The notes below the pieces were generated by a model, which was not told where the DNA came from, searched no databases, and was given only the letters and a program-made list of their open reading frames with translations. DNA of 22,038 bases, taken from IMG/VR virus record IMGVR_UViG_3300042868_004997, positions 1 through 22,038 of that record. One strand, written 5' to 3'. This document shows, piece after piece, positions 5,847 to 21,447 of the stretch (positions are counted from its first letter, which is position 1; every line of letters starts with the position of its first letter). The position numbers and the translations under genes are program-made. Origin of the DNA: a virus.

Positions 5847-6278
5847 TCAACTTACCTCTGTTCTACCATCACCAAGGTCCTTAGCACGAACCACACGCAT
5901 GTCCGTAGCCATTGCCCGATTCTCCGGATCGGCCTGCTGTTGCTCATAGAGTTCTAGTGCTACATTACGACATACTGTTTGAAACCAACGATCTACAATA
6001 ATTGTATCAGTATCATCTTCACGTATTTTATATCCTGCACGAATCAAGTTTAACACAAACTTATCATTAAAGTCAAGTTCGAATGCGCCCGTATTAATAT
6101 CATATGGATCAAGTTCCATCTTAAGAATATTAACATAAGGCAATCCTTCTTTGGTTGCCTTTTCTTTATCAGATAGAACGCTATCTTCTTTTTTCTTCTT
6201 AGGCTGACGAGGTTTCTTTGCCTGTACAGGCTTTACAGGTTCTGGCTTTTTGAATAAGTTCTTTATTTTGTCAAACAT
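5847..6278 (-). CDS. Conserved T4-like phage hypothetical protein (143 aa)
   Basis: It begins MFDKIKNLFKKPEPVKPVQA, with a basic low-complexity linker (KKPRQPKKKKEDSV, about residues 21-34). A compact domain follows with YVNILKMELDPYDINTGAFE, then DKFVLNLIRAGYKIREDDTD and VDRWFQTVCRNVALEL. From memory, this architecture (short helix, Lys/Pro linker, FELDxN...W...CRN) recurs in cyanophages and other T4-like marine phages without assigned function. The amphipathic start plus linker could tether the domain. It overlaps uvdE by 16 bases and is therefore co-transcribed with it. Confidence 0.85.
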   Translation of the reverse strand: MFDKIKNLFKKPEPVKPVQAKKPRQPKKKKEDSVLSDKEKATKEGLPYVNILKMELDPYDINTGAFELDFNDKFVLNLIRAGYKIREDDTDTIIVDRWFQTVCRNVALELYEQQQADPENRAMATDMRVVRAKDLGDGRTEVS

Positions 6279-7291
6279 TTATATCTCTCTAATAATTTAA
6301 AGCTGGCAAGATTCTTTGCCTTCGATTCGCACATCATATCAAAATTATCAATGAATGTCAATGCCCAATCGTTCACCGCTTCGTTCCAATAGTAATCACT
6401 ATGTGCCCGAAGTTTTTGCTTACTGTATCCCGATTCAATCAACGCACCATGATTGGGTAACTGTGATCCGGAATGGCCGACAAGTACGTCCTCACGGCTG
6501 ACGGAGTAATGTAAAGTAGGCCTAATACCGCGCCAACTATCAATAACTTTTTTAACCCTGTCATCATTGGGGGAAATATATTCTCCTTCACGAATCCAGT
6601 GATGGTGAATGTCCATGACCGTAGGTACGAGGTCAGATAATGATAAGCAGTCTGTAAGTCCATGTGTGTATTCCTCATTCTCTAATGTAAGTGTGTTTCG
6701 TGCCTCGGGGCTAAGTCTATTATAAACATCTCTGATGCCCTGAGGACCTTTGCGACCAGAGATGTGAACATTGATTTTCATATCTTGAAACTTCTGACCA
6801 TAGCCCATCCAACGAGCCATGTCACAATGATATTCAAATTCATCTATACTCTTATTTACTACTTCTTCACGGTCACTTGCTAAAACTACAAATTGATCGG
6901 GGTGAAAACTTAGACGAACATCATTAGCCCTAGCAGTTTCACCGATCGGTGCGAACCATCGTTGTAAACTGTTTTGTACATCAGTTGATTGCCAAAAGTC
7001 TTTGTACTCATCCATAGTGTAGAAACTGAGCATATCGCTAGTAAGACGCAACATACGCAATTGTGGATCAAGTGTTGCAACTTTCTTAACAAGTGCATGT
7101 GTATTTAGAATATTGCGTTTAGCAACATCCATAATCTTTTCTTCTACGACACTACGACTATTACGCTTTGCCCAAGCATGAGTTGTACCACCTGTGTTAA
7201 GACCTTCGGCTGAAACAATCTCACCCTTCTTGTTAATTTCTGCCCATTTGCAAGCAAAACCGATACGTTTGACTGACTGATTTGTGTACAT
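6263..7291 (-). CDS. uvsE: UV-damage endonuclease (UvdE/UvsE)
   Basis: A metal-dependent TIM-barrel endonuclease that nicks DNA 5' of UV photoproducts and starts alternative excision repair. At 342 aa it is within the family range. Signatures seen: RIGFACKWAEI at the start, LSFHPDQFVVLAS (127-139, H130 and the DQF motif), H176 in NVHISG, ENEEY (E204, E206), DIHHHW (227-232), HYSVS (H261) and LRAHSDYYW (H297, D299). The full set of expected metal ligands is present. T4 itself uses DenV instead, so this is a different repair solution in a T4-like context. It is expressed from the divergent promoter at 7322-7350 and overlaps the next gene by 16 bases. Confidence 0.95.
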   Translation of the reverse strand: MYTNQSVKRIGFACKWAEINKKGEIVSAEGLNTGGTTHAWAKRNSRSVVEEKIMDVAKRNILNTHALVKKVATLDPQLRMLRLTSDMLSFYTMDEYKDFWQSTDVQNSLQRWFAPIGETARANDVRLSFHPDQFVVLASDREEVVNKSIDEFEYHCDMARWMGYGQKFQDMKINVHISGRKGPQGIRDVYNRLSPEARNTLTLENEEYTHGLTDCLSLSDLVPTVMDIHHHWIREGEYISPNDDRVKKVIDSWRGIRPTLHYSVSREDVLVGHSGSQLPNHGALIESGYSKQKLRAHSDYYWNEAVNDWALTFIDNFDMMCESKAKNLASFKLLERYKCLTK

Positions 7292-7305
7292 AGATAGACC
7301 AAAAT

Positions 7306-7313
7306 GATAAATA
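7306..7313 (+). promoter_or_regulatory. T4-like late promoter motif (GATAAATA)
   Basis: GATAAATA matches the NATAAATA late-promoter element described for marine T4-like phages and 7/8 of T4's TATAAATA. It lies 55 bases before the first plus-strand gene, the only place from which that whole block could be transcribed within this window. Confidence 0.5.
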
Positions 7314-7321
7314 ATAGATAT

Positions 7322-7350
7322 AGTGTAGCATACCTACGCAATAAAGTCAA
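7322..7350 (-). promoter_or_regulatory. Promoter for uvdE (TTGACT-N17-TACACT)
   Basis: On the minus strand TTGACT (7345-7350) is followed after 17 bases by TACACT (7322-7327): 5/6 and 4/6 matches with ideal spacing, about 30 bases before the uvdE start. It shares the short divergent region with the plus-strand late motif. Confidence 0.55.
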
Positions 7351-7368
7351 CTATTTACGGGAACTAAC

Positions 7369-8799
7369 ATGAGAGCAAACGAATTTTTAATTGAAAATGT
7401 GTTAAATGAGGGTGTAGAATTGCCATATAAAGGCTATGTTATTAAAGCATTTACGCTTAAAAATTCCAACACTGCTAAAGCCTGGGTGGGTGATAGAAAT
7501 GGTAACCAAGTTACTAATATAACAAAACTTTTTCCTGAGGTTGAAGTTGGATCTGAAGAAGAAGCAGTAGAAATTCAAAAACAAAAAATAGATGACTACA
7601 CGAACACTAGTTCAGTAGTAACAAAATATTTTAAAACATATCCAAATAAAAATTTACAGAGCATTCTGCATTTACCTGATTATATTTATGCGGGTGTGGA
7701 TTCAGGAGGCATTGTGTATATTAGTACAAAACCTCAACCCGGATGGTTAAAAAAAAGCGTAACATATGCAGATGGTAGTGGCACTGGTACACCTATTCAT
7801 ATAGACGATTTAAAAAAAGCTGGGCTTGAACCGGGTACTAGATATGAGGTGATAAGTAAAGAGGTTATGGATCCCGATACAGTAGCACTAAAAGTAAAAG
7901 AATATAATAGAATAACACATAGCGGTGACAAAGATGATAATAGAGTACCATTAATAGTAATTCAAATGGCCGGCAGAAATAAAGGTGTGGGGGAAGCCGC
8001 AAACCCAGCACAACAAGCCGCTATTGCTATCAATATGAAAAAACATCATCAGAAACCTAAAAGTGAAGGCGAGCTAAATGAATTTGCTCCTAATAAGCCT
8101 CCCACAGGCGGTGGTGGCGGACCAAAAGATTATGGTAAACCTACTAGTTCACGTTATATAGGTGGTAACAAGTTTGTAGTAGGTACTACCAATAACTATG
8201 TGTTAACTGCAACAATAGACAAATGGGGATTAGAATGGGATGAAGATGATGAAATCTGGTTCTTAGATAGCCCCGGTGCCGCACATATTGCTGATGCCAG
8301 TGAAGGTGAAATAGAATTACCTCCACCAATGGAACAAAGAAATCAAATTCACGATTTAGTAACTGATTATCTCAATGCTAGAAATTCTGCTGATTTACAA
8401 AAAGTAGCCGCATATTATGGTCATAGTGATGATGGTGAAATGGCAACAAATGAAGGTGAGAATTGGTCAAAGCACAATAACAAACGTGTTGGCGGGATGA
8501 GCAAAAAATCTGTGAGTAGTTATCGCCGCAGTCACCCTGGTAGCAAGATTCAAACAGCAGTAACTACTAAACCTAGCAAACTTAAAAAGGGTAGTAAAGC
8601 CGCTAAACGCCGTAAGTCATTCTGTGCTAGAATGAAAGGTATGAAGAAAAGTAGAACAAGTGCCAAGACAGCAAGAGATCCAAATAGCAATATTAATAAG
8701 AGTTTACGTAGATGGAATTGTGAATCCATTGAGCAGATGGAAGAATTACTAATGCTTGCCGAACAAATGGTAGCTAAAGCTAGGAAAGAAATACTATGA
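7369..8799 (+). CDS. Putative packaged protein: capsid-targeting leader plus basic DUF6321-like C-terminus (476 aa)
   Basis: The N-terminus MRANEFLIENVLNEG matches the T4 capsid-targeting pattern (MKTYQEFIAE of internal proteins) and offers two (L/I)-x-E sites, after E9 and E14. A Gly-rich linker (GGGGG) near residue 250 precedes an acidic/aromatic domain (about 260-320). The C-terminus (401-452) is strongly basic, with AAKRRKSFCARMKGMKK, RTSAKTARDPNS and SLRRWNCE, a module common in phage proteins (DUF6321 by recollection) and possibly nucleic-acid binding. It ends in a short helix. The ribosome binding site is GGGAA. First gene of the coupled plus-strand block. Function unknown; being packaged is inference. 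Confidence 0.85.
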   Translation: MRANEFLIENVLNEGVELPYKGYVIKAFTLKNSNTAKAWVGDRNGNQVTNITKLFPEVEVGSEEEAVEIQKQKIDDYTNTSSVVTKYFKTYPNKNLQSILHLPDYIYAGVDSGGIVYISTKPQPGWLKKSVTYADGSGTGTPIHIDDLKKAGLEPGTRYEVISKEVMDPDTVALKVKEYNRITHSGDKDDNRVPLIVIQMAGRNKGVGEAANPAQQAAIAINMKKHHQKPKSEGELNEFAPNKPPTGGGGGPKDYGKPTSSRYIGGNKFVVGTTNNYVLTATIDKWGLEWDEDDEIWFLDSPGAAHIADASEGEIELPPPMEQRNQIHDLVTDYLNARNSADLQKVAAYYGHSDDGEMATNEGENWSKHNNKRVGGMSKKSVSSYRRSHPGSKIQTAVTTKPSKLKKGSKAAKRRKSFCARMKGMKKSRTSAKTARDPNSNINKSLRRWNCESIEQMEELLMLAEQMVAKARKEIL

Positions 8800-10274
8800 A
8801 TTTTAAAGAACTATTTGAAGGCGCAGAGCCAAAAATGCCCGGAGCACCGAGTGGCATACAAATTATGACACCTCAGCAATTCGTTGCTAAAGCTGGTGAT
8901 ATGCCCGGTGAAAAAGAAGTTGACGAGGGAGTTCGTGATTTAGGTTATGATGCACAATCTCTTATAATGAAGTTGCGCCGTGATGTTGAAGAAAGAAGAC
9001 TACAACCAACTAGAGAAGCAGTATTGGCAGCGGCAAGAGAATTAGCCGGTGACATGGATTTTGCTCCCGAACTACTAGTTCAACAAGTGTTGGGCAAAAG
9101 CGTAGCAGAAGGTTTAGACAGAATTCGCAAACTATCTGGATTAGATGAAGCAACTAAACTACCAGCAAGTAGCCGTGAGTTTGGTGGTGACGAGTTCCAA
9201 GACTACATGAAACGTATCATTGGTACTCCTGATGTTGATAAACAAGGTAATGTTAAGACTGACAAGAAGGGCAATGAAAAGTATGTGTCTGGTAAAACAA
9301 AGACAGACAGATATAAAATGCCTTACATACATCGTAGTAGTGTGATTGAATATTTAGGTCCTGATGGTCAAACATATAATGAAGATAAAATCAAACAAGC
9401 ATTGGCACAAAGACCAAAAGCATTATTAAAGCAAAACGAAAAGATGAAGCATAGTAACGGTGAATTAGAACAGTTCTTTAACGTTGGCTTTGCGGCATTG
9501 ACTGGTATCGCATTGGATGAAGATACAAACAAACTAATCATTGTTAATACATGCCCAGGAGCTGGTTCATGTAAAATAGATTGTTTTGCCATGAAGGGTG
9601 GTAAAGTTCAGTTCAAAGCCGCTTGGCAGAGTGATGGTCGTATACTAACATATCTATTGAATGACCCAGATGGTTTCTTCAGTCAACTAAGCAGTGAAAT
9701 TGCCAAAGAAGAAAAATTAGGTCAGAAGGGTGGTTATACAGTAACCATTCGTTGGCATGATGCTGGTGACTTCTTTAGCCCAGAATACTTAGATTTAGCA
9801 TTGAAGATGGCTGCAAAGCATCCTGATACTAAGTTCTATGCGTATACAAAGATGGCTGGTGCCGCGCTAGGTCAGAAACCACCTAACTTCATTATCAACT
9901 GGAGTGAAGGTGCTAATACAGGACAAGAGAAGCAAGTCAAAGCCAAAGATGCTAACTTAGATACAACTAAGAATAGTCGCATTGTTCCAGATGATTTGTT
10001 CCAAGATTTGTTAGTTAAGGACGAAAAGAAAAACTTAGTTAAGGGGTCAGAAGGCCAATGGCAAGTACAACCTAACAAGTTACCTGAACTAAAGAATCGT
10101 CTTGCTAAAGAGTATGGACTAAGTGCTAACAGTATTCTAAACTATGATGAGTACATGGCTAAACGCAAATCTATCCCTGCAGGTATGAAGTACAATGTTA
10201 TTGTTGCTCCTGGTGAAGGTGATATCAGTGCTAATGATCCTAACATCATATCTACATTACTATTGAAACACTAA
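8796..10274 (+). CDS. Putative packaged GP88-like cysteine-motif protein (492 aa)
   Basis: Residues 1-9 (MNFKELFEG) form a leader with an L-F-E|G site. A second possible protease site is L-D-E|A at 116-119, after a RIRKLSGLDEA motif; cleavage there would release the main domain. That domain resembles phage GP88-type proteins: CPGAGSCKIDCFAMKGG with C253, C259 and C263, then TIRWHDAGDFFSPEYLDLA (317-335) and FYAYTK (347-352). The cysteine/His set could bind a metal, but the CX5CX3C spacing is not the radical-SAM one. The biochemical activity of this family is unknown to me. ATGA-coupled to its neighbours. Confidence 0.8.
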   Translation: MNFKELFEGAEPKMPGAPSGIQIMTPQQFVAKAGDMPGEKEVDEGVRDLGYDAQSLIMKLRRDVEERRLQPTREAVLAAARELAGDMDFAPELLVQQVLGKSVAEGLDRIRKLSGLDEATKLPASSREFGGDEFQDYMKRIIGTPDVDKQGNVKTDKKGNEKYVSGKTKTDRYKMPYIHRSSVIEYLGPDGQTYNEDKIKQALAQRPKALLKQNEKMKHSNGELEQFFNVGFAALTGIALDEDTNKLIIVNTCPGAGSCKIDCFAMKGGKVQFKAAWQSDGRILTYLLNDPDGFFSQLSSEIAKEEKLGQKGGYTVTIRWHDAGDFFSPEYLDLALKMAAKHPDTKFYAYTKMAGAALGQKPPNFIINWSEGANTGQEKQVKAKDANLDTTKNSRIVPDDLFQDLLVKDEKKNLVKGSEGQWQVQPNKLPELKNRLAKEYGLSANSILNYDEYMAKRKSIPAGMKYNVIVAPGEGDISANDPNIISTLLLKH

Positions 10275-10642
10275 TGCTATCCAAAGAGTTTATTTTTGAA
10301 AATACAAATGATCATACTCAATTATGGCATGGAACATCTGAGCCAGCTGATGTTATTCAACAGCAAGGTCTAAGAGGTGGTAGACACCATGCAGTATTTT
10401 TAACAGATAATCCTGACTTAGCATTAGAGTATGCGGTGTCAGACCAAGAAAGAACTGGTAATGATTATGTAACATTAATCACAGTTGATGTAAATAAATT
10501 AGACCATAAAAAACTTGTAGGAGATTTGGATCATACTACAGTTGATAATTGGATTGACAGTTTAAAAGAAACAGATCAATGTATGTATTTGGGTGATATA
10601 TTACCTAATATGATTGTACAAGTTGAGGATTATACAGACTAA
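10274..10642 (+). CDS. Mini ADP-ribosyltransferase-like protein with capsid-targeting leader (122 aa)
   Basis: The leader MLSKEFIFE fits the EFIxE pattern with a site after E9. The remainder resembles a minimal ADP-ribosyltransferase (PARP/KptA-like) fold: LWHGTSEPADVI (H19, the NAD-binding His), GLRGGRHHAVFLTDN (32-46), a DLALEYAV helix, TLITVDVNKL, and MYLGDILPNMI (104-114), which recalls the last strand motif of 2'-phosphotransferase-like ARTs. T4 Alt is a packaged ART that modifies host RNA polymerase; by analogy this could be an injected ART. It is far shorter than Alt (682 aa), and the catalytic Glu or Gln cannot be fixed by eye. TAATG overlaps at both ends. Confidence 0.65.
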   Translation: MLSKEFIFENTNDHTQLWHGTSEPADVIQQQGLRGGRHHAVFLTDNPDLALEYAVSDQERTGNDYVTLITVDVNKLDHKKLVGDLDHTTVDNWIDSLKETDQCMYLGDILPNMIVQVEDYTD

Positions 10643-11196
10643 TGCGTGACTTAATTACTTTACTTGAGGATAAGAGTAAACCCCAAGACATAGAAATCAT
10701 TCCACTAAACTTTACTGAAGGTGAACTTGCACCTGTTCTTAGTAAAGATACAATAGAACTTCACTATGACAAACTAGCTAAAGGTTATGCTGAACGCTAT
10801 AACAAGGGTGAGGGTGATAAGGATTTTAACTATGCAGGTGCATTTTTACATAATACATTATTCCCTCAGTTCCGTGAAGTGAGAAATAAAAATAATCCCA
10901 ATGGTCCTATGATGGGCTTTATTAACAAACATTTTGGCTCATACGAATCAATGAAGGATCAGTTTGAAACTGAAGCAATGAAGATTCAAGGTAGTGGTTG
11001 GGTATACTTAGCAACTGATGGTAAGATTAAAACTATCAAGAACCATGAAGTACGCAATGACATACTGTTGTTAGTTGATTGGTGGGAACATGCCTGGATA
11101 TTAGACTATGGTTCTGACAAAAAGAAATATTTGAAAGAACAGTGGAAGATTATTAACTGGAATGTAATCAATACACGTTGGGGTAAGAGTCTATGA
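10642..11196 (+). CDS. Fe/Mn superoxide dismutase-like protein with capsid-targeting leader (184 aa)
   Basis: After the leader MRDLITLLED (compare MELITELFDED of T4 Alt) the sequence follows the Fe/Mn SOD fold: LAPVLSKDTIELHYDKL (29-45), FLHNTLFPQF (68-77), GFINKHFGSYESMKDQF (92-108), GSGWVYL (117-123), VDWWEHAWILDY (145-156) and INWNVINTRW. All four metal ligands are present (H41, H70, D146, H150), as is the gateway Tyr (Y49). The His pair after the first ligand in most bacterial enzymes (HYGKHH) is replaced by L45-A46, which may change activity or specificity. Expected reaction: superoxide to peroxide and oxygen. The length is near the usual 190-200 aa. ATGA/TAATG-coupled. Confidence 0.85.
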   Translation: MRDLITLLEDKSKPQDIEIIPLNFTEGELAPVLSKDTIELHYDKLAKGYAERYNKGEGDKDFNYAGAFLHNTLFPQFREVRNKNNPNGPMMGFINKHFGSYESMKDQFETEAMKIQGSGWVYLATDGKIKTIKNHEVRNDILLLVDWWEHAWILDYGSDKKKYLKEQWKIINWNVINTRWGKSL

Positions 11197-11375
11197 ACTT
11201 AGACGAACTTAAAAGACTTGCTGGTGTAAATGATTATAGAGGAAAACCTACATCTTCTATTCCTATAGACCGTAGTAAGATTACTGCAAAGCCGGGCACT
11301 GATGAATGGTTCAAATCAATGTTCCCCGTTAATGATTTACATATGCCAGCAGGATTTAGAGGACGTAAGAAATGA
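11193..11375 (+). CDS. Small basic protein with DELKRLAGV motif (60 aa)
   Basis: It begins MNLDELKRLAGVNDYRGKPT and ends basic (GFRGRKK). The LxRLAGVN string resembles RIRKLSGLDEA in the 492-aa protein of this block, suggesting a shared targeting or cleavage motif. The leader is weaker than its neighbours (L-D-E at 3-5). A DYRGKPTSS string also recalls DYGKPTSS in the 476-aa gene. Coupled on both sides by ATGA. No fold can be named. Confidence 0.7.
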   Translation: MNLDELKRLAGVNDYRGKPTSSIPIDRSKITAKPGTDEWFKSMFPVNDLHMPAGFRGRKK

Positions 11376-11926
11376 GAGCCACTGAGTTTATCACAGAAGC
11401 CAAAGTAAGTGTTAAGGATCAAATCATCAATGCTGTTAAGCGTGATGGTGGCAGACCAGAAGAATACTTTGTTCGCTTTACTGACATTGACCAGTTAGGC
11501 TTTAGTGCTAAACAAAAGTTTGGACGTAGTGTTGACATTGACCATCCAGACTATTATCCAGATTATATTGGTGCAGGCAAGGGTAATCCTGCATTGTGGT
11601 TCTATCCATTAAAAACTTATATAAATGATAATGACTTGTATGCTATGGAAAAGCCTTATGTTTGGTTAGTTAGATTAAAACCAAATGCATGGTTACAACC
11701 AGTTGATAGAAATACAACTGATAAACAAGAAGCACCACAAGGTAAAGAACGTGTGGGAATGATGAAAAATATCAGACCTTTCCCGGCTGCAATTTTCTTT
11801 AAGCATGGATTCGATGTAGTAGGTAAATTCTATGACTATGGTAGTCAACATAAACGTCATGGAGAAGTTAAAGGTCCGTCAAAGGGTAAACCAAGTTTCT
11901 TTGATAGAGTTAGGGGTTATACATGA
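11372..11926 (+). CDS. Putative packaged protein with capsid-targeting leader (184 aa)
   Basis: MRATEFITEAK is the best leader in the block: I-T-E|A is an ideal T4 gp21-type cleavage site after E9. The rest has VRFTDIDQLGFSAKQKFG (34-51), PALWFYPLKTYIND (about 72-85) and PYVWLVRLKPNAW. From memory, this pattern (T-D-x-x-x-L-G ... YPL) recurs in unannotated proteins of aquatic phages. No catalytic residues can be named. The C-terminus is basic (KRHGEVKGPSKGKPSFF). Coupled by ATGA at both ends. Confidence 0.75.
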   Translation: MRATEFITEAKVSVKDQIINAVKRDGGRPEEYFVRFTDIDQLGFSAKQKFGRSVDIDHPDYYPDYIGAGKGNPALWFYPLKTYINDNDLYAMEKPYVWLVRLKPNAWLQPVDRNTTDKQEAPQGKERVGMMKNIRPFPAAIFFKHGFDVVGKFYDYGSQHKRHGEVKGPSKGKPSFFDRVRGYT

Positions 11927-12930
11927 GAGCTAATGAATTTATAATAGAACGCAAAAAATCTAGAAAAAAATCTAAAAGAATTCGCAGAACAGGAGGATAT
12001 TATTTTCCTGGTTATGGCTACTACGGAGGTAGTGGAGAATCCGGTGAAGGCGGAGGTGATGGTGGCGGCGGAGAATCAAGGTCAAGTGTGGCGGAAGGCT
12101 ATTCAAACACTACATTTAATGTTGACCGTAGAAAATTAAATGTACCGGCTCTTATACAAAAGGGTGCGATATTAGTTACTCATCCTCACGGTGAACAAGG
12201 TTGGGAAACTGATGATAAAGAAGACTGGGCTTTTAGTTTACTATCATTATATAATGTTCTTCAAGGTGGATGGCCTAGTGAAGCTAAAAAGTATCTCAAA
12301 CCTCAAAGCTATAAACGAGCAGAACAACAAATTAACTCTAGTGCGCCAAATCTAGGATCTGACAAATTAGTATATGATGGAAAATATAATCAAATACTGT
12401 GGAGCATTAAAAAGCTAGGCATACCAGACAATGTAGCATTTCTAGATAAAGGTCAGCAAGGTGTCACAGAAGGCACACTAAGTGTAGACGTACCTAATGA
12501 GGATTGGTTACAAAGCAAGATTGACTATGCTAAAAAGCAAGGACGCAATAGTTATGGTGTACCATATATGGGCAGTACTACAGCTTCAGTAAGAGGAACA
12601 CCACCAAGAGTACGTGTAATGCGTTTGGCATCATTGCCGGGTATGCGCCATGAACAAACTAATGTCCGTAAAGCTGACTTAAAGTGGTTGATGGATTATA
12701 TGGAAAAGACTGGTAAATTACCACCCATGTCACACAGTCCCGATCACGAATATCTTCCATACATCATGGTTGCCTACAACGGTGAAGCATGGGTCAACGA
12801 AGGCAATCATCGTATCATGGCTGCATACAGATTAAACTGGCAAGATATGCCTATTGAAATACGTTACTTTGACGGTGGTGAAAGAATCAAAGACGGGCCA
12901 ATGTATCCGGGAAAGATTGGTTTAAGTTAA
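11923..12930 (+). CDS. Putative packaged ParB-like protein with capsid-targeting leader (335 aa)
   Basis: MRANEFIIERKKSRKKSKR starts with the leader (site after E9), followed by a very basic stretch and a Gly/Ser linker (GGSGESGEGGGDGGGGE, about 35-51). The C-terminal region (about 235-320) resembles a ParB/sulfiredoxin-like domain: RVMRLASLPG, a helix (KADLKWLMDYMEKTG), YIMVAYNGEAWVNEGNHRIM with the EGNHR box at 293-297, and MPIEIRYFDGGE. That is the substrate-binding E/D-G-x-H-R variant, kept better here than in the 409-aa gene. The middle part (60-180) is unrecognised. Last gene of the block; its stop overlaps the convergent epimerase gene. Confidence 0.75.
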   Translation: MRANEFIIERKKSRKKSKRIRRTGGYYFPGYGYYGGSGESGEGGGDGGGGESRSSVAEGYSNTTFNVDRRKLNVPALIQKGAILVTHPHGEQGWETDDKEDWAFSLLSLYNVLQGGWPSEAKKYLKPQSYKRAEQQINSSAPNLGSDKLVYDGKYNQILWSIKKLGIPDNVAFLDKGQQGVTEGTLSVDVPNEDWLQSKIDYAKKQGRNSYGVPYMGSTTASVRGTPPRVRVMRLASLPGMRHEQTNVRKADLKWLMDYMEKTGKLPPMSHSPDHEYLPYIMVAYNGEAWVNEGNHRIMAAYRLNWQDMPIEIRYFDGGERIKDGPMYPGKIGLS

Positions 12931-15833: not shown

Positions 15834-16052
15834 TTACCTTGTTAGTTTCCACATAATATGGGTATTCTTATCGTGCCATCTATACTCAAATATAGATTCA
15901 CCTGGCCCAGTAATGATTCTAGTTAATCGGTATCCATACTTTAACCAAATACGTTCACCTGATATATCACATCTCTTAGGTAACCAAGCAAACTTGTATT
16001 CGGTTCCGATCATCCTTTCATAGAAATGATCGTATGGCTGTGTTTGCGGCAT
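15834..16052 (-). CDS. Conserved small phage protein (72 aa)
   Basis: The start used is the ATG at 16050-16052 (MPQTQPYDH), because GGGGAAC lies 6 bases ahead and it overlaps the QueE stop (TAATG); an in-frame GTG 12 bases earlier would add 4 residues. The sequence AWLPKRCDISGERIWLKYGY ... IFEYRWHDKNTHIMWKL resembles a small phage family of unknown role. It is aromatic and basic, soluble, and possibly nucleic-acid binding. Coupled to QueE. Confidence 0.75.
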   Translation of the reverse strand: MPQTQPYDHFYERMIGTEYKFAWLPKRCDISGERIWLKYGYRLTRIITGPGESIFEYRWHDKNTHIMWKLTR

Positions 16053-16900
16053 TAAGTTCCCCACTCATTTTTAAAGAGTGGTACTTGTAGTCTGTCGCTA
16101 TAACGATAACCACGATTCATTGCTTCAATAGCAACATTCTTTGCATTTAAGTTATACAATGATTCTACACCACCGCATGGCATGAAGTATACTGGACCTC
16201 TAAAACCTCTACCACGAAACTCTTTTACTGCTTCATCAGCTTCAATTGCATCTTCTTTTGTGGCAATGACAAACTTAAGATATACAAATCCTATGCTTTC
16301 ATATTGATGAATAATTTCGGGACAAATTGCTTCACTCCACTTCTCACCGCTGATACTTAGTTTAGGACTCACACTAAATGTAAGTGCATTCTTTTCTCTG
16401 TTAATCTTCCATTTCTGTAGATATATTTTAAAGTCTTGATTTAGTTCTTGTGTGCCATTAGTTTCAAATGTAATCTCTTTCAATGCTCTCATTTTCTCAT
16501 GTGACAGTAAGTCAGGATACGCTCTTTGCCAGCCAAGAAGAGGTTCACCACCTGTAATAACAAGATGTTCATCCATCCAACGACCATGAGGAAGTATATC
16601 ACAAATGCTGTCAACAATACTATCGGTAGCGATGACAGGACTAAGATGTTTAAAACGAGGGTCCCAACTTGCGTAACTATCACATCCTGTACTGACAAGC
16701 GGTAAGGATTTATAGTCTGTATAATCTTCTGCTTTAATCGCAATAACATCTCTCTCACTACTCAATTCCCCTTTAGGCATGCCGAATCCACCGCATGTAA
16801 AATTGCATCCATATGTTCGTAAGAACACGGAGGGAACTCCCATGAATCTACCCTCACCTTGAATACTATAAAATAACTCTGATACTTTTAAATGACTCAT
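16052..16900 (-). CDS. queE: 7-carboxy-7-deazaguanine synthase (QueE)
   Basis: A radical SAM enzyme converting 6-carboxytetrahydropterin to 7-carboxy-7-deazaguanine (CDG), the third step from GTP in the queuosine/7-deazaguanine pathway. Seen: FYSIQGEGRFMGVPSVFLR (10-28), GCNFTC (C32, C36), and TGCDSYASWD (C73), which aligns with the third Cys of the usual WCDTxYAW motif; thus the CX3CX2C cluster motif is split by an insert of about 34 residues (CX3CX36C). SAM-site ITGGEPLLGWQ and ETNGTQEL follow. At 282 aa it is longer than most bacterial QueE (about 210-245), because of the insert. Coupled with the 63-aa gene upstream. Confidence is high; activity with a split motif is inferred. Confidence 0.92.
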   Translation of the reverse strand: MSHLKVSELFYSIQGEGRFMGVPSVFLRTYGCNFTCGGFGMPKGELSSERDVIAIKAEDYTDYKSLPLVSTGCDSYASWDPRFKHLSPVIATDSIVDSICDILPHGRWMDEHLVITGGEPLLGWQRAYPDLLSHEKMRALKEITFETNGTQELNQDFKIYLQKWKINREKNALTFSVSPKLSISGEKWSEAICPEIIHQYESIGFVYLKFVIATKEDAIEADEAVKEFRGRGFRGPVYFMPCGGVESLYNLNAKNVAIEAMNRGYRYSDRLQVPLFKNEWGT

Positions 16901-17088
16901 TTGATTTTTATATTAAAATGTTTAAGAATAACTTCACCCCAAGTGCCGCCACCTTGTTTATAAAGATGGTTAACTTGTTTAGCACAGTCTCTAATTACTA
17001 ACTCAGCAAAATGTTCATAACGTTTTTCATCCATTATATCATCTCGTTGAGCGGCTTCTTCCCATAGTTCTTTAATTTTTTTATTCAT
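16897..17088 (-). CDS. Short FAELVIRDC-module protein (63 aa)
   Basis: It reads KIKELWEEAAQRDDIMDEKR, then HFAELVIRDCAKQVN and ends VILKHFNIKIK. This parallels the C-terminal module of the 110-aa protein at 1674-2006 (RIRELAEQA ... FAELIVREC ... IKEHFGVEE), so the two are probably paralogues, this one the minimal form. Its TGA overlaps the QueE start (ATGA). The role is unknown. Confidence 0.75.
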   Translation of the reverse strand: MNKKIKELWEEAAQRDDIMDEKRYEHFAELVIRDCAKQVNHLYKQGGGTWGEVILKHFNIKIK

Positions 17089-17091
17089 ATT

Positions 17092-17283
17092 TTACCAATG
17101 ATGTATAGTATTTGCTATAATAAAACAACATGTTATCACATGTAGCACCACCCAGAAAGTTTTTAGGAACAATGCAATTCTTGCTTCACCCAATGTAAGA
17201 ATAGGCACATCAGGCCTGTCATCATCGGTGTTACCCATTAGATGACCTGTTGCCCTAGCCCAGATTTTCTCAAGCGAATTCAT
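17092..17283 (-). CDS. Small single-pass membrane protein (63 aa)
   Basis: The start used is the ATG at 17281-17283 (MNSLEKIWARATGHLMGNTD), with AGGGAAG 6 bases upstream inside the QueD end; the longer frame lacks support. Residues 1-34 are polar with a DDDRPDVP stretch, and residues about 40-60 (FWVVLHVITCCFIIANTI) form one membrane segment. It probably sits in the host inner membrane with the N-terminus in the cytoplasm. Overlaps QueD by 14 bases. Unknown role. Confidence 0.75.
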   Translation of the reverse strand: MNSLEKIWARATGHLMGNTDDDRPDVPILTLGEARIALFLKTFWVVLHVITCCFIIANTIHHW

Positions 17284-17752
17284 TGTCTTCCCTGTGACCA
17301 CCACGTCCTGCCATGTTACTATCAGTCTCACGAACCTCTACTCTACAGCACCAGACACGTTTTGCTTCTTCACTACCGCAGTTAGGTAAAAAGATTGTGT
17401 TAATATATTCATACAAGAAGTCAGCAATACCTTCACAACCAGTACGTTCTACTTCTGTAATCTTTGCTAATTTCAAACGACCTAGTTCTAATAAATGTTC
17501 ACGCATTGGGTCATCTTGTGCAACTAGTAATGTATGATCGAACCATTCTTCTAGTTTATCTTTGAGTGGTCGTAATCCACCGAAGTCTGTTACCCAGTTA
17601 CGGGCATCAAGTGTATCAGCTTCAAACTCAAAGTGAAAACTCATAGCATAGCCATGAATTAAATTACAATGACTGTCTGCACGCCATTGACGATATGCAA
17701 CAGGACCTATTTGTCGGTATGTCTTTGTTGAAAAGAATTTTTTGTTTGCCAT
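17270..17752 (-). CDS. queD: 6-carboxytetrahydropterin synthase-like (QueD/PTPS)
   Basis: Expected to convert dihydroneopterin triphosphate (the FolE product) to 6-carboxytetrahydropterin for QueE. Family marks: SHCNLIHGYAMSFHFEFE (H28, C29, H33, H40), DFGGLRPLK (56-64), FDHTLL (D72, H73), TGCEGIADFLYEY (104-116) and VEVRET with E142. The canonical HGH zinc triad reads HGY here (Y35 for the third His); this may be a feature of the aquatic-phage branch, with H40 as a possible substitute. At 160 aa it is longer than E. coli QueD (121 aa). AGGAG precedes the start, and an extended -10 promoter lies just upstream. Confidence 0.85.
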   Translation of the reverse strand: MANKKFFSTKTYRQIGPVAYRQWRADSHCNLIHGYAMSFHFEFEADTLDARNWVTDFGGLRPLKDKLEEWFDHTLLVAQDDPMREHLLELGRLKLAKITEVERTGCEGIADFLYEYINTIFLPNCGSEEAKRVWCCRVEVRETDSNMAGRGGHREDNEFA

Positions 17753-17770
17753 TGTGTTCTCCTATGTTAG

Positions 17771-17799
17771 ATTATAGCATAGGACGCAGAATTTGTATA
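17771..17799 (-). promoter_or_regulatory. Extended -10 promoter for the queD-queE group
   Basis: The minus strand reads TATACA (17794-17799), 17 bases, then TGC-TATAAT (-10 at 17771-17776). A full -10 with TGn extension and a 4/6 -35 makes a credible host-type promoter. The predicted start is about 10 bases before the AGGAG site of QueD. Confidence 0.65.
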
Positions 17800-17826
17800 C
17801 CGGGATGAGCCCAAAGAGACCGGTAT
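17797..17826. other. Inverted repeat ATACCGG...CCGGTAT
   Basis: A perfect 7-bp inverted repeat with a 16-base spacer overlaps the -35 of the QueD promoter and begins 9 bases after the stop of the sulfotransferase-like gene. It could be a repressor operator or an mRNA 3' hairpin; no T-run follows. Confidence 0.45.
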
Positions 17827-17834
17827 TGGTAAAG

Positions 17835-18536
17835 TCAAAGATTTGTTAAAAAATCCATAACCTCTTGTTTATTTATAATTAAATCAAATGGGTCACCTTT
17901 AATTGACTTTTCACTTTGATATTTAAATTTTGTGTTGTAGATGTTTTCCATATCTGAATGTATAGATTCATAATTTACTGTTTGATATTCAATATTGTGT
18001 AATACCACAGATAAGTTCTTTTCCCATAATAGATGACTATCATAGATGTGAGTTAGTGCTTTATTTAATTTTCTAAGATCAATGTATACCGGTTGATTTA
18101 TTTCACTATTAATTCTAAATACATTTTTTACATAAGAGCGGGCAATCATGTAACTTAATAGTTGTTCTTTTATATCCCTTTTCAATGTGATAAATTCAAA
18201 ACCTATATTTTTTAATTCCATTATTATATTAGATAGTATATCTTTATCATGTTGATCCATCAAAAATATTCTTAGTGTTAGTGGCTGATTTATATTTGTA
18301 TTTTTCAATAAATCAAGTCGTTCTTTAAATCCTTCAAATAGTTTAAAGTCTGTAGGAATGCTAGCAAAATTCTTTAATAATATATTATTGTCCACATCAG
18401 TGATGTATTCACTACGATTCCAATTTTCGAAATATTCACCCAATTGAATCCCTGAGTTTACCTCATTAGCTAATTGTTCACATAATTGACTACCCGTGCG
18501 TGGTAAGCAAATAATACAAGTTCGGTTACCGTTCAT
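17835..18536 (-). CDS. Sulfotransferase-like protein (Stf0-type, 233 aa)
   Basis: Near the start, CIICLPRTGSQLCEQLAN (PRTGS at 13-17) matches the 5'-phosphosulfate-binding loop of PAPS-dependent sulfotransferases, and KNIGFEFITLKRDIKEQLLS carries a later R-D motif like the 3'-phosphate-binding region. If correct it transfers sulfate from PAPS to an unknown acceptor. It is short (233 aa) and divergent otherwise. The start is uncertain: the ATG at 18534-18536 was used; an in-frame TTG is 6 bases earlier. The APS-kinase-like fusion two genes upstream could supply PAPS. The codon bias is more AT-rich than its neighbours, hinting at later arrival. Confidence 0.55.
   Translation of the reverse strand: MNGNRTCIICLPRTGSQLCEQLANEVNSGIQLGEYFENWNRSEYITDVDNNILLKNFASIPTDFKLFEGFKERLDLLKNTNINQPLTLRIFLMDQHDKDILSNIIMELKNIGFEFITLKRDIKEQLLSYMIARSYVKNVFRINSEINQPVYIDLRKLNKALTHIYDSHLLWEKNLSVVLHNIEYQTVNYESIHSDMENIYNTKFKYQSEKSIKGDPFDLIINKQEVMDFLTNL
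17870..17877 (-). promoter_or_regulatory. Possible late promoter motif (TATAAATA)
   Basis: An exact T4-type late element on the minus strand, inside the end of the sulfotransferase-like gene and about 118 bases before QueD. In AT-rich DNA an 8-base match can be chance. Confidence 0.25.
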
Positions 18537-18544
18537 CTTCAAAA

Positions 18545-18769
18545 TTAATCTTTATCTGTCACAATTACTGCAACCTTATTTACCCAAACTATTCTACCAT
18601 GGCAAGCAATATTCCATTTGGTTTCGCCATATTCATGTGTGCATTCGGTAAAAGTTTCTCCAATGATGCGAACATCTGTTGCCAAATGTTCTACACCATT
18701 TTCAAAAACACGCCAGACTAGTTCACTACCGTTATGTTTGGTATTAAATCTAACGTGGTATTTGTTCAT
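18545..18769 (-). CDS. Conserved phage hypothetical protein (74 aa)
   Basis: It begins MNKYHVRFNTKHNGSELVWR and carries VFENGVEHLATDVRI, then a Cys (ECTHEYGETKWNIACHGRIV). From memory, the pattern (HVRFNTKH....WR.FE.G.EHL) recurs in small proteins of T4-like marine phages with no known role. It looks like a small beta-rich domain. ATGA-coupled with the upstream kinase/nucleotidyltransferase fusion; 2 bases separate it from the TTG option of the next gene. Confidence 0.8.
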   Translation of the reverse strand: MNKYHVRFNTKHNGSELVWRVFENGVEHLATDVRIIGETFTECTHEYGETKWNIACHGRIVWVNKVAVIVTDKD

Positions 18770-19560
18770 TTTAATCCTAATTCCTTACGAATCTTTGTGG
18801 CACTAATACTATGAATAGCATCATCAAAAGTTTCTTGTTCAATCTTATATCCAACATCACGCCCATATGTAATGTTCACAATGTTAGGAACAACTTGTAT
18901 TTCGTACTGACCTTGGTACAGAGGATCTAAGTCTCTACGAATAAAACTCTTTACTTGTTCAATAGCAAATGGATTACTTCCTTGCCATCCTTGACAATCA
19001 CGTATTTGAATCACTACCTGTCCTGTTTTAGCAATAGCACGTTCAAATAATGCACGATGTCCTGGATGCCACGGTTGCCAACGTCCTAACATCTGTACTG
19101 TTTCTTTCTGCCAATCAAACACCGGTCTACGGCGATTATCATATATATGGGCGGCAATAAACTCACCCCACCATTCAGCACGTTGTTCTGTAATTCTAAA
19201 GTCGTAAACTTCAGGAGGTACAAATGCTTTGTTGGTATCTTCGTAACGACCTTTGTCAATGGTGTCAACCCATATAGTCCAATCTGCTTTGAAGTTGTTA
19301 CGCATTTCAACTAAAGGTGCAACAAAGTCGCAGATAACATAATCATACTCTGTCATTGAATCTGCTAGTTCACGCATACGTAGACTTTGACGAATACGGC
19401 CTGCTTCAGTGAAATCCCAGTCGTTGTATTTTTTACGAACATCGTCGGCATTGAGCCAACCCACTTTTTTCTTTTCGTTTTGTAAATGTTCTAGTACATA
19501 TTGTGCTAGATAAGTCTTACCCGATCCGGGTAAGCCCATGATTAAGATTCTTTGAGACAT
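18766..19560 (-). CDS. APS kinase-like / HxGH nucleotidyltransferase fusion (264 aa)
   Basis: N-terminal part (1-150): P-loop GLPGSGKT (9-16), LNADDVRKKY (36-45, equivalent to LDGDNVR of CysC), DFTEAGRIRQSLRMRELADSM (49-69) and DFVAPLVEMR, the APS kinase order. C-terminal part (155-264): GRWQPWHPGHRALFERA with the HPGH site (165-168) and ISATKIR (252-258), a nucleotidyltransferase of NMNAT/PPAT-like style. It could phosphorylate a substrate and adenylylate another: PAPS formation is possible given the nearby sulfotransferase-like gene, or an NAD-salvage/nucleotide-activation role. The C-terminal domain is too short for ATP sulfurylase. ATGA-coupled with its neighbour. Confidence 0.85.
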   Translation of the reverse strand: MSQRILIMGLPGSGKTYLAQYVLEHLQNEKKKVGWLNADDVRKKYNDWDFTEAGRIRQSLRMRELADSMTEYDYVICDFVAPLVEMRNNFKADWTIWVDTIDKGRYEDTNKAFVPPEVYDFRITEQRAEWWGEFIAAHIYDNRRRPVFDWQKETVQMLGRWQPWHPGHRALFERAIAKTGQVVIQIRDCQGWQGSNPFAIEQVKSFIRRDLDPLYQGQYEIQVVPNIVNITYGRDVGYKIEQETFDDAIHSISATKIRKELGLK

Positions 19561-19562
19561 TT

Positions 19563-19766
19563 TTAATTTTCCTTTAAGCCTTGTATTAGTGTTTTTAATT
19601 CTTCATCTGTCATAAAAAAATTATATGTTGATGTATCAATAACTGTTCCATCTTTTAGATTTTCTTGTATAAACTCTATAGAATTTAAATCCGACGGAGT
19701 AAGACATTTATTTAATTGAACACGGAGTCTAAATGCTTGATTTTCTTTAACTGTAAAATTTTTCAT
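19563..19766 (-). CDS. Small hypothetical protein (67 aa)
   Basis: It starts MKNFTVKENQAFRLRVQLNK and ends EELKTLIQGLKEN. Mixed strand/helix composition, no cysteine pattern, no membrane segment. Its ATG overlaps the stop of the cytidylyltransferase gene (ATGA at 19763-19766). I do not recognise a family; its placement in a coupled chain supports it. Confidence 0.65.
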   Translation of the reverse strand: MKNFTVKENQAFRLRVQLNKCLTPSDLNSIEFIQENLKDGTVIDTSTYNFFMTDEELKTLIQGLKEN

Positions 19767-20227
19767 ACTTTATTCCTTTCTGCTTCTGCTACACGTTTGC
19801 GTAAACTTGAACTACTAAAACTATGGTCACGCTTATTAAATATAACTTGGACACCACGACCTGCACCCTCATTACGTCCGGTAAAGTTCTTATCCTCATA
19901 CTCTGTACCCAAAATACGAACATCTAATGGGAGTATCAACAACAAGTCAATCAAGTCTTGTTCAGTTTGATAAACTACTACTTCATCAACATAACGACAA
20001 GCCGCTAGTTGAATCTGTCGCTCAACAATACTTTGAATAGGTTTGTTCTTAGTATCAGGTCTATCAATAGTTGGGTCAGTTTGTAATCCACAAATCAAGT
20101 AATCACAATGATTTTTAGCTTCACTTAACATAGCAACATGGCCTGCATGAAGCATATCAAATGTACTGAAAGTAACACCAATCTTCTTACCCTGTAATTT
20201 TAGTTCTTTAATGTGATTGAAAATCAT
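19763..20227 (-). CDS. Cytidylyltransferase-like (TagD/RfaE2 type, 154 aa)
   Basis: The start used is the ATG at 20225-20227 ([10 protein letters not shown]), which overlaps the upstream TGA; a GTG 18 bases earlier is the alternative. TFSTFDMLHAGHVAMLSEAK has the HAGH catalytic site (H27 and H30 from this start), followed by SIVERQIQLAACRYVDEVV and a C-terminal SSSSLRKRV (ISSTxxR-like). The length fits glycerol-3-phosphate or ribitol-phosphate cytidylyltransferases (about 130-150 aa) and the C-domain of HldE. It would activate a sugar- or polyol-phosphate as CDP/ADP derivative; the substrate is unknown. It fits the sugar-modifying gene set in this window. Confidence 0.85.
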   Translation of the reverse strand: MIFNHIKELKLQGKKIGVTFSTFDMLHAGHVAMLSEAKNHCDYLICGLQTDPTIDRPDTKNKPIQSIVERQIQLAACRYVDEVVVYQTEQDLIDLLLILPLDVRILGTEYEDKNFTGRNEGAGRGVQVIFNKRDHSFSSSSLRKRVAEAERNKV

Positions 20228-20460
20228 TTTGAAAGAGTTCTCCACATCTTAGTTTGGTCATGTTCTTTTAAGAATTCATCCTCACCTGCAAATGTAGGAC
20301 TGTCAGCCATAATCTCATCTAACAACCATTTTAACTTATGTAAATCTTGTTTGATTCCCCATTGAACATAACCGTCATTATACGGGCTATGTAGTTCTAC
20401 CCCTGCTAGATAGATTTGATGATGTACTGAATTATAATCCATTGGTGCTCTAAATCCCAT
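20224..20460 (-). CDS. Small hypothetical protein (78 aa)
   Basis: The start used is the ATG at 20458-20460 ([20 protein letters not shown]), because GGGAG lies 8 bases ahead inside the end of the DHFR-like gene; a longer frame exists but lacks a site. It is probably helical ([18 protein letters not shown], about 41-58). Its TGA overlaps the cytidylyltransferase ATG. No family recognised. Confidence 0.7.
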
Positions 20461-20638
20461 TATTAATCTCCCAAAGTTCAAGGGCCTTTGCAGGATATAT
20501 TTGCACAGAGCCCTTCTCAGTAGAACTTTCAACTGCATAACCTTCAGGGGTCAATTCAGTTGAATACGTACCTACTACCTTACCGTGCCATTGTGAACCT
20601 GACACTTTCTTAACCATATCACCTAACTTAAATTTCAT
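20450..20638 (-). CDS. Type II dihydrofolate reductase-like protein (R67/DfrB family, 62 aa)
   Basis: The sequence [18 protein letters not shown] ... [10 protein letters not shown] ... [12 protein letters not shown] matches R67 DHFR (GDRVRKKSGAAWQGQIVG ... [10 protein letters not shown] ... GSVQIYPVAALE) almost end to end. R67 is a 78-aa SH3-like protein that works as a homotetramer with one central active pore, reduces dihydrofolate with NADPH, and is insensitive to trimethoprim. Active-site equivalents are kept: K11 (R67 K32), W17 (W38), Q46-I47-Y48 (Q67-I68-Y69). The missing N-terminal ~20 residues are disordered and dispensable in R67. It lies two genes downstream of FolE, so a folate or pterin role is plausible. 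The family is clear; activity is inferred. Confidence 0.85.
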
Positions 20639-20770
20639 TTATTTATTCCCACATGTGCAATTACGACCTTGATTGCAGTCGCCTGTACAGCTACTATTAT
20701 TTGGCATTGTAGCAAATAATACTACGATGCCAACTACTACCGCTATTGTAATTAATAATGTAATAGTCAT
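20639..20770 (-). CDS. Mini membrane protein with Cys-rich tail (43 aa)
   Basis: A 43-codon frame: MTITLLITIAVVVGIVVLFA forms a membrane segment or uncleaved signal (residues 2-21), followed by a tail with C28, C32, C38 and C40 (CTGDCNQGRNCTCGNK). The CNQGRxCxC string recurs in very small phage and bacterial exported proteins, from memory; its role is unknown, and the four cysteines could bind metal or form disulfides outside the inner membrane. The ATG overlaps the FolE stop (ATGA) and its TAA abuts the DHFR-like gene's leader. Confidence 0.7.
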   Translation of the reverse strand: MTITLLITIAVVVGIVVLFATMPNNSSCTGDCNQGRNCTCGNK

Positions 20771-21447
20771 TTGCAACCTTTGTTAGCAATCTGTAAGAAC
20801 TCTTGTCTTGCCGCTGGATCAGTTTTGAAACCACCACCTAAACGACAAGTAACAGTACTACTACCTGTATCTTCTACACCACGTGATTTTACACAATAGT
20901 GTTGTGCATCAATCATAACTGCAACATCTTCTGTTTCAAGGATGAACTGTAAGGTGTGGAAAATTTGCTCTGTTAACCTCTCTTGGATTTGAGGCCTTTT
21001 GCTAAAATATTCTACAATACGGTTTATCTTACTAAGCCCTAACACTCGTTGTTTAGGGACATAAGCTACAGTAGCCAATCCGTCAATGATGACAAAATGA
21101 TGTTCGCAGTTAGATTGAACATTAACATTACGCTCTACAACCATTTCGTTGTATTGCATCTTGTTGTCAACTGTTGTGCATTTAGGGAATGCTTCATAGT
21201 CTAGTCCCCAAAAGATTTCATTTACATACATCTTAGCAACACGCTTTGGTGTTTCAATCAAACTATCGTCTGACAGGTCTAGACCCAATGTAAGCATAAT
21301 GTTTGTGAAAGCATTTTCGATGATTTCGATTTTAGCTTTACGATCAATACTGTTATTGACTGTAGGAGTTTCTACACCACACTTAAGTAAATGCTGATGT
21401 ACTTTTTGACCCAATTCTGGATCTGTTTTTGTCTTATTATAACTCAT
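20767..21447 (-). CDS. folE: GTP cyclohydrolase I (FolE)
   Basis: Converts GTP to 7,8-dihydroneopterin triphosphate, the entry point to folate and to 7-deazaguanines. Seen: SLIETPKRVAKMYVNEIFWG (62-81), CEHHF (C114, H116, H117), LGLSKINRIVEYFSKRPQIQ (137-156), DAQHYCVKSRG (H183, C185), and GSSTVTCRLGGGF. The Zn ligands C114, H117 and C185 are all present. At 226 aa it is typical (E. coli 222 aa). Strong GGAGG ribosome binding site. QueD and QueE are in the same window, so the main use is probably base modification; the neighbouring DHFR-like gene adds a folate reading. Confidence 0.96.
   Translation of the reverse strand: MSYNKTKTDPELGQKVHQHLLKCGVETPTVNNSIDRKAKIEIIENAFTNIMLTLGLDLSDDSLIETPKRVAKMYVNEIFWGLDYEAFPKCTTVDNKMQYNEMVVERNVNVQSNCEHHFVIIDGLATVAYVPKQRVLGLSKINRIVEYFSKRPQIQERLTEQIFHTLQFILETEDVAVMIDAQHYCVKSRGVEDTGSSTVTCRLGGGFKTDPAARQEFLQIANKGCK

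Follow-up and report, generated by a model that had tools for sequence, protein, structure and literature searches.

Putative capsid-targeting leaders on a modular cargo cassette of a T4-like jumbo-phage group, with predicted prohead protease sites at module joints

Why do six of seven adjoining phage genes, whose products belong to unrelated domain families, begin with the same type of short leader? The question arises from IMG/VR virus record IMGVR_UViG_3300042868_004997, of which positions 1 to 22,038 make up the whole stretch analyzed here (the window). Calls of open reading frames (ORFs) and the junction sequences bore out a preliminary description of this DNA, which had noted seven coupled plus-strand genes between minus-strand genes: the seven (g1 to g7; 476, 492, 122, 184, 60, 184, and 335 amino acids [aa]) occupy positions 7369 to 12930, and all six gene-to-gene junctions read ATGA or TAATG. 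Six of them have leaders of 8 or 9 residues ending in (L/I)xE, as had also been noted: MRANEFLIE (g1; 7369 to 7395, predicted cut after E9), MNFKELFE (g2; 8796 to 8819, predicted cut after E8), MLSKEFIFE (g3; 10274 to 10300), MRDLITLLE (g4; 10642 to 10668), MRATEFITE (g6; 11372 to 11398), and MRANEFIIE (g7; 11923 to 11949). Those of g1, g2, and g7 were assigned from the N-terminal pattern, and for g3, g4, and g6 the occurrences in other loci described below were also used. In T4, the capsid-targeting sequences are MKTYQEFIAE (internal proteins) and MELITELFDE (Alt), and gp21 cuts after (L/I)xE. From sequence comparisons, we consider it likely that the cassette leaders are of this T4 type, that they mark cargo which is packaged, trimmed, and ejected, and that mosaic cargo proteins are cleaved at joints with a second role in recombination. 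Large T4-like phages appear to be equipped with an exchangeable set of enzymes, labeled for packaging in the head and probably processed there ahead of injection.

The leaders exceed chance expectation. A loose pattern (M, 3 to 9 residues, then [LI]xE) matched six of the seven cassette genes, with g5 failing, versus 2 of the 30 called minus-strand ORFs in the window (Fisher P = 8e-5); at an assumed background of 11%, the probability of at least six matches in seven is 1e-5. Because those two minus-strand ORFs fit the loose pattern, the earlier statement that no minus-strand gene has a leader fails for the loose form and is restricted here to the strict form, for which it holds (0/30). In six related records that include the window's own contig, the strict form was present at 21 of 2188 N termini and at none of 8559 internal methionines. 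A position-specific scoring matrix (PSSM) of the leader was passed by 34 of 1750 N termini, with 5.2 expected from internal methionines; the strict pattern was chosen after the leaders had been seen, and both it and the PSSM were derived from the genomes in which they were then counted, so the internal-methionine null serves as the control. Leader genes also cluster, forming 6 adjacent pairs versus 0.68 in shuffles (maximum, 4 in 2000). Across 101 strict-pattern leader genes, the wobble bases were variable except for a fixed AGA arginine codon, and conservation did not extend past the P1 Glu, which argues that selection acts on the peptide; the conservation of residues 1 to 9 in this set is partly built in by the strict-pattern selection. 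The remaining gene, g5 (11193 to 11375, 60 aa), was considered as a leader gene since it starts MNLDELKRLAG, with LDE at residues 3 to 5. Some of its homologues begin MNIDQ or MDTND, and for this reason we do not count it as a real member of the leader set. Small g5-family proteins without a real leader sit inside or near cassettes, and one protein (G021:344786-345034) shares the LKxLxG and PGTxEWF stretches with g5 by eye.

Homologues gathered without reference to the pattern retain the leader. For the superoxide dismutase (SOD) encoded by g4, all 80 loci used (the best of 230 relatives) have [LIV]xE ending at residue 9. An E directly precedes the g6 module in all 15 of its loci, and in 14 of these the residues read [LIV]xE. 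For the g3 module, [LIV]xE precedes six of nine loci, and the other three have MAE (two) or VWE (one) a few residues upstream; the window's own copy is included in all three counts. The g3 module sits behind MLSKEFIFE, MKTIREYLNLLE, and MKINEILTE and, within a longer protein, behind IQEQDITE, suggesting that leader and cargo are exchanged as units; leaders are also swapped among modules that have no relation to one another.

Relatives of the window encode a protease of the appropriate type. The cassette recurs in the 101-kb IMG/VR contig G001, with an identical SOD and gene starts in the same succession, and the window belongs to a T4-like jumbo-phage group. There was no S77 match within the 22-kb window. 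Among 39 records searched from the lists of SOD relatives (best 80 of 230 kept) and g7 relatives (39), the S77 prohead protease was found in 14 and the capsid protein Gp23 in 15, and both were present in all 12 searched SOD- or g7-bearing records larger than 200 kb; two large g6-bearing records (320,541 and 337,119 bases) lay outside this search. The head genes are ordered small gene, scaffold-like gene, protease, gp22-like gene, gp23 in six of seven relatives (two on the minus strand) and in Pseudomonas phage PA5oct, the labels "small," "scaffold-like," and "gp22-like" being assigned from gene position; the head region of G035 has insertions and a longer gp23. The Gp23 propeptides end in LLAE, YLKE, FLVE, or LINE at the same place, those of the seven relatives having LAE, LKE, or INE there as expected, and we take these ends as the putative cleavage rule of the group, the cut itself being predicted from sequence. 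Short Gp23-like proteins (115 to 128 aa) without a propeptide also occur (G024:13507-13854 and G024:200850-201236 [L250 and L249]; G027:50137-50487 [L253]). They were dropped as propeptide carriers, as they match the stretch after the propeptide.

The same residues recur inside cargo proteins. Modules found behind a leader in some proteins occur inside others, again after [LIV]xE, and g7 and its relatives are mosaics of such modules, with several disparate domains in one polypeptide. At 142 nonredundant internal module boundaries, E occupied P1 in 99 and [LIV]xE was present in 75, while other offsets from -12 to +12 gave 0 to 42 and 0 to 16, respectively. Information at these boundaries was 2.36 bits at P1 and 1.15 at P3, which is mostly L, V, or I, compared with 0.34 to 0.84 at the other positions from P8 to P7'. 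This set excludes matches with E >1e-6, query start >2, identity <45%, or length <25, as well as positions within the first 45 residues and sites with a strict leader; exact 16-residue contexts were merged, and many of the proteins kept are related. A looser set gave E in 141 of 262 and [LIV]xE in 105 of 262. Most of the [LIV]xE boundaries read LDE, LNE, VNE, LSE, and the like, not QGVAEG.

QGVAEG is nevertheless a frequent junction, and it is written with the same codons, giving an 18-bp in-frame repeat, CAAGGTGTGGCGGAAGGC. At the joint, 64 of 81 codons for Val and 61 of 81 for Ala/Ser/Thr end in G, versus a genome background in which GTG makes up 13% of Val codons and GCG 7% of Ala codons; since the sites were selected on their peptide sequence, the information in this count lies in the wobble bases only. 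Near-copies lay in sense frame 0 in 102 of 103 cases, and the reversed sequence contained none. Among the viral IMG/VR matches listed, 161 of 163 exact copies were in frame, compared with 25 of 70 single exact copies in the joint frame in a cellular-contig control. For pairs of sites with shared homology, drawn from 345 sites after removal of those with <70 residues upstream or <80 downstream and of exact duplicates, homology was confined to one side of the joint in 215 of 217 (the pairs are not independent), versus 14 to 31% at positions 30 to 42 residues away. This indicates that the joint is where modules are exchanged. Of 109 joint-bearing proteins, 78 also begin with an [LIV]xE leader, versus 1015 of 4361 other ORFs (ORFs of <90 aa left out); placing the pattern at residue 41 or 81 of the same proteins gave 28/109 and 16/109. 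Whether the element CAAGGTGTGGCGGAAGGC acts twice, as a recombination joint and as a translated prohead protease site that splits polyproteins before injection, is in our judgment evenly poised. No account of the QGVAEG joint, or of its combination with these cargo types and internal sites, was found among the papers listed by a literature search that covered neither preprints nor most subscription papers.

Within the window, several candidate sites lie in g7. Its joint, QGVTEG (12457 to 12474), has three mismatches and a predicted cut after E183; the junction reads QQGVTE followed by GTLSVDVPNEDW, and the same terminal module stands alone in G028 as MRAQEFITE followed by GKLSVDVPNEAW. A second internal site, SVAE (E58; 12085 to 12096), precedes GYSNTTFNVDRR, and locus L003 has QGVTEGYSNTTFNVDRR at the same place. 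A low-confidence AlphaFold model of g7 (mean predicted local distance difference test [pLDDT] score, 53), which we used only to judge linker disorder, shows two domains with pLDDT below 50 at residues 1 to 67 and 176 to 193, so that the sites at residues 9, 58, and 183 fall in disordered stretches. A fourth [LIV]xE (residue 293) falls within a predicted strand and was not counted as a site. In g1, a degenerate near-copy of the joint repeat, KGVGEA (7981 to 7998; three mismatches), precedes the AANPAQQAAIAI module. Two candidate sites in g2 are VDE (8919 to 8927), identified by pattern only, and SVAE (9099 to 9110), for which relatives have GVAE before a related EDHLARIRK stretch.

In the scheme that we infer from these observations, the leaders would be capsid-targeting propeptides like those of T4 internal proteins and would carry the cargo to the core of the prohead. 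There the S77 protease of the phage would cut after [L/I/V]-x-E, so that the cargo would end up trimmed beside the DNA and be ejected with it. Many cargo proteins are mosaics of exchangeable modules, and since the same predicted site is found at the joint preceding a module, multimodule cargo would probably be split in the head into separate effectors. The joint seen most often, the 18-bp repeat coding for QGVAEG, would also be the point at which modules recombine. As an example of cargo function, the SOD may protect the newly infected cell.

Formally, the leaders could be T4-like packaging tags while the internal [LIV]xE and QGVAEG sequences are only fusion scars or a recombination repeat, in which case the mosaics would remain uncut. 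Conservation of the joint at the DNA level and the break of homology at the joint are just what a recombination repeat would produce. However, such a repeat does not account for the majority of [LIV]xE boundaries, which are not QGVAEG, or for the concentration of information at P1 and P3. Moreover, four cyanophages that have S77 (P-HM1, P-SSM2, RN05-S, and DSL-LC02) keep VSE, VNE, VSE, and IGE before DUF6321, whereas two Pelagibacter phages without S77 have no such site there (DUF6321 occurs in 454 records, of which these six were read). We therefore regard uncut mosaics as unlikely.

The remaining explanations concern the leaders themselves. It is conceivable that they direct assembly or localization elsewhere in the virion or cell (to the tail, neck, or membrane), with the terminal E being incidental, and some leader-like families do lie near genes taken by eye for tail genes in G021, G006, and G028. 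This explanation is made highly improbable by the recurrence of the prohead protease rule ([LIV] at P3, E at P1), inside proteins too, and by the start, MKINDIITE, of the small PA5oct gene that lies between those for the portal and the protease. An effect on RNA or translation through a shared initiation region, rather than through the peptide, would fit the conserved 5' element found ahead of the first cassette gene; it is hard to reconcile with leaders whose wobble bases vary while the residues are kept, or with the service of one module by leaders as different as MKTIREYLNLLE, MKINEILTE, and MLSKEFIFE, and we give it very little credence. Least credible of all is chance, or common descent of a small number of paralogues. 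The loose pattern alone does fit 8 to 17% of N termini and 7 to 10% of internal methionines in the six related records, but the boundary, Fisher, and internal-methionine controls, together with the sharing of one leader type by unrelated domain families, argue against it.

Several observations weigh against capsid targeting and cleavage at the joints. Co-occurrence with a gp21-type protease and T4-like capsid genes, which the preliminary description had proposed as a check, was complete in the 12 large SOD- or g7-bearing records, but the window's own 101-kb contig, a fragment, has no S77 protease or Gp23 match. Among 17 joint-bearing records searched, the protease was found in six, including three of the five larger than 200 kb; the other two, G044 and G049, have no match for S77, Gp23, or the T4 portal. 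Leader conservation in homologues held for the SOD (80/80), g6 (14/15), and, in part, g3 (6/9) but failed in Vibrio phage 2.275.O, which has an S77 protease and a SOD (34% identity) without a leader. The divergent relative G035 has strict leaders at 0 of 407 N termini. At the internal boundaries, 43 of 142 lack E at P1, part of which we attribute to alignments that start two residues late, as in LAEGE/NWSK. Finally, of the 102 exact joint copies for which the 5' end is complete, only 15 are in proteins passing the narrower PSSM, which suggests that the leaders of joint-bearing proteins are diverse.

Mass-spectrometry flags in a cultured relative add to these points. SOD homologues occur in 11 Pseudomonas phage records, including PA5oct, Paride, MIJ3, and Callisto (37% identity), and the SOD N terminus of PA5oct and Paride is MNDSIKKYISIAE; a predicted cut after E13 of the PA5oct protein would leave a new N terminus of AASSVKK. 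The PA5oct SOD, gp223, is flagged for electrospray ionization tandem mass spectrometry (ESI-MS/MS) in its record, where the flagged proteins also include metabolic enzymes. Neither the loose leader class (flagged, 13/53 versus 77/353; P = 0.39) nor a second leader pattern (4/21 versus 86/385; P = 0.72) was enriched among flagged PA5oct proteins; the gene caller recovered 90 of the 93 flagged coding sequences. The leader PSSM was passed by two PA5oct N termini, one of them flagged, with no enrichment. PA5oct, Paride, MIJ3, and Callisto (Wroclawvirus and kin) thus resemble the window in having a SOD homologue, PA5oct and Paride resemble its relatives in having the S77 protease, and PA5oct also has the same head gene order; they differ in that the leader has diverged and g2, g6, and g7 have no match there. 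Cultured phage records as a whole contained no match for g6, g7, or a cargo protein with five joints, and g2 matched four of them weakly.

What the leaders precede is clear for some cassette genes, and the SOD and GP88 labels of the preliminary description are secure, whereas the ART-like and ParB-like labels stay weak. The product of g1 (7369 to 8799) ends in a DUF6321 domain (PF19846, 2.8e-10, over the cutoff), and that of g2 (8796 to 10274) has a GP88 domain (PF17338, 4.5e-25; 89.3 bits versus a Pfam cutoff of 24.4). The g4 product (10642 to 11196) is an Fe/Mn SOD by its Sod_Fe_C match (2.5e-24, over the cutoff); Sod_Fe_N (1.3e-5) scored 26 bits, just below the 27-bit cutoff. Its H41, H70, D146, and H150, which we take to be the four SOD metal ligands, were invariant in 16 of 16 rows. 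Near-full-length alignments of g4 to solved SODs begin at query residues 17 to 22 (query residue 19 falls on residue 4 of 1isa), leaving about 15 extra N-terminal residues in g4. For g3 (10274 to 10642), a possible ADP-ribosyltransferase (ART) or RNA 2'-phosphotransferase-like domain is indicated by weak ART-type family matches, all below cutoffs, the ART-like label resting on a Pfam match of 0.033; a defense-system library gave one weak match (E = 0.0009). The g6 model (11372 to 11926; mean pLDDT 73, with residues 1 to 10 below 50) has ParT as its best solved-structure match (Z = 5.1), with Foldseek E values of 0.15 or worse, consistent with a weak ART-superfamily fold. Both g3 and g6 may thus be ART-like, each weakly. 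The second of the two tandem domains of g7 (11923 to 12930) has a weak ParB-like match (phrog_1033, E = 0.0052) and no Pfam match. Pfam revealed no peptidase family in the seven window proteins.

Ahead of g1, at 7297 to 7360 on the plus strand, lies a conserved 5' element that has TGATAAATA at 7305 and ends AGTCAACTATTTACGG. It is present in 14 copies, including the window's (L013, L017, L022, L024, L041, L042, L066, L166, L198, L240, L246, L285, L320, and L382), all situated a few bases ahead of a leader-gene ATG regardless of the protein encoded, with about 50 well-conserved bases that are perhaps the promoter of the cassette. TGATAAATA lies within 100 bases ahead of 11 of 383 G006 genes (2 in an in-gene control), some of them leader genes and some structural looking by eye, and showed no excess over permutations in any of three records. 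The T4 late promoter TATAAATA was also considered; it is absent ahead of the cassette, and G021 has 34 copies versus a permutation median of 61. Directly adjoining the cassette on the opposite strand is a gene for the UV endonuclease UvdE (6263 to 7291; Pfam, 9e-36). Farther along, minus-strand genes of the folate/queuosine type (16052 to 21447) encode GTP cyclohydrolase I (4.4e-61), 6-pyruvoyl tetrahydropterin synthase (8.7e-16), and a possible QueE-like radical SAM protein (0.0053, under the cutoff). The PA5oct SOD gene has GTP cyclohydrolase and QueD-like genes as neighbors, within 5 kb.

If the reading preferred here, of targeted, trimmed, and ejected cargo, is correct, a nine-residue tag would offer a way to list, from sequence only, the proteins that a large and mostly uncultured phage group delivers with its DNA. 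The joint repeat would show how new injected effectors are assembled by recombination, and the modular leaders would be ready-made for protein delivery with phage heads. To our knowledge, a packaged SOD would be an unusual virion cargo for a phage; judged by titles and the starts of abstracts, none of the papers listed by our literature search concerns a packaged phage SOD.

Three known systems invite comparison. T4 internal proteins are of varied kinds, united by the targeting sequence alone (PMC3012670, PMC9026906); in one of them, IPIII, an E-to-D change at the last leader residue is reported to block cutting while still allowing entry (PMC9026906). Alt is a packaged ADP-ribosyltransferase (PMC9026906, PMC3012670, PMC5512222). 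The likeness lies in an N-terminal leader of about 10 residues, in diverse mature proteins with only the leader in common, and in the T4-type head genes and S77 protease of the window's relatives. In view of this, the proposal that the cassette encodes a new kind of virion cargo set was too strong as to principle (PMC3012670); it was too weak as to architecture, missing the mosaics, the internal sites, and the DNA-level joint. The cargo types, which include SOD and GP88, the predicted internal sites of the many multimodule proteins, and the 18-bp in-frame joint repeat are what is new here and what sets the group apart from T4. Head proteins of the giant phages phiKZ and SPN3US are cut by a prohead protease after Glu, and the SPN3US propeptides are mostly much longer, with the motif AxE (PMC5694885, PMC10052503, PMC13282480); here, by contrast, the leaders have 8 or 9 residues and end in [LIV]xE, and the relatives have a Gp23-type capsid. 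The polyvalent proteins of phages and plasmids are multidomain, are thought to be widespread and to be injected with the DNA, include ART and ParB domains, and have been proposed to undergo proteolytic processing (PMC5512222). The several disparate domains in single polypeptides of g7 and its relatives are reminiscent of them. For some polyvalent proteins, however, a built-in peptidase has been proposed, and none was found in the seven window proteins; the arrangement here would instead rely on a separate prohead protease acting at a defined site, with a joint that is conserved at the DNA level.

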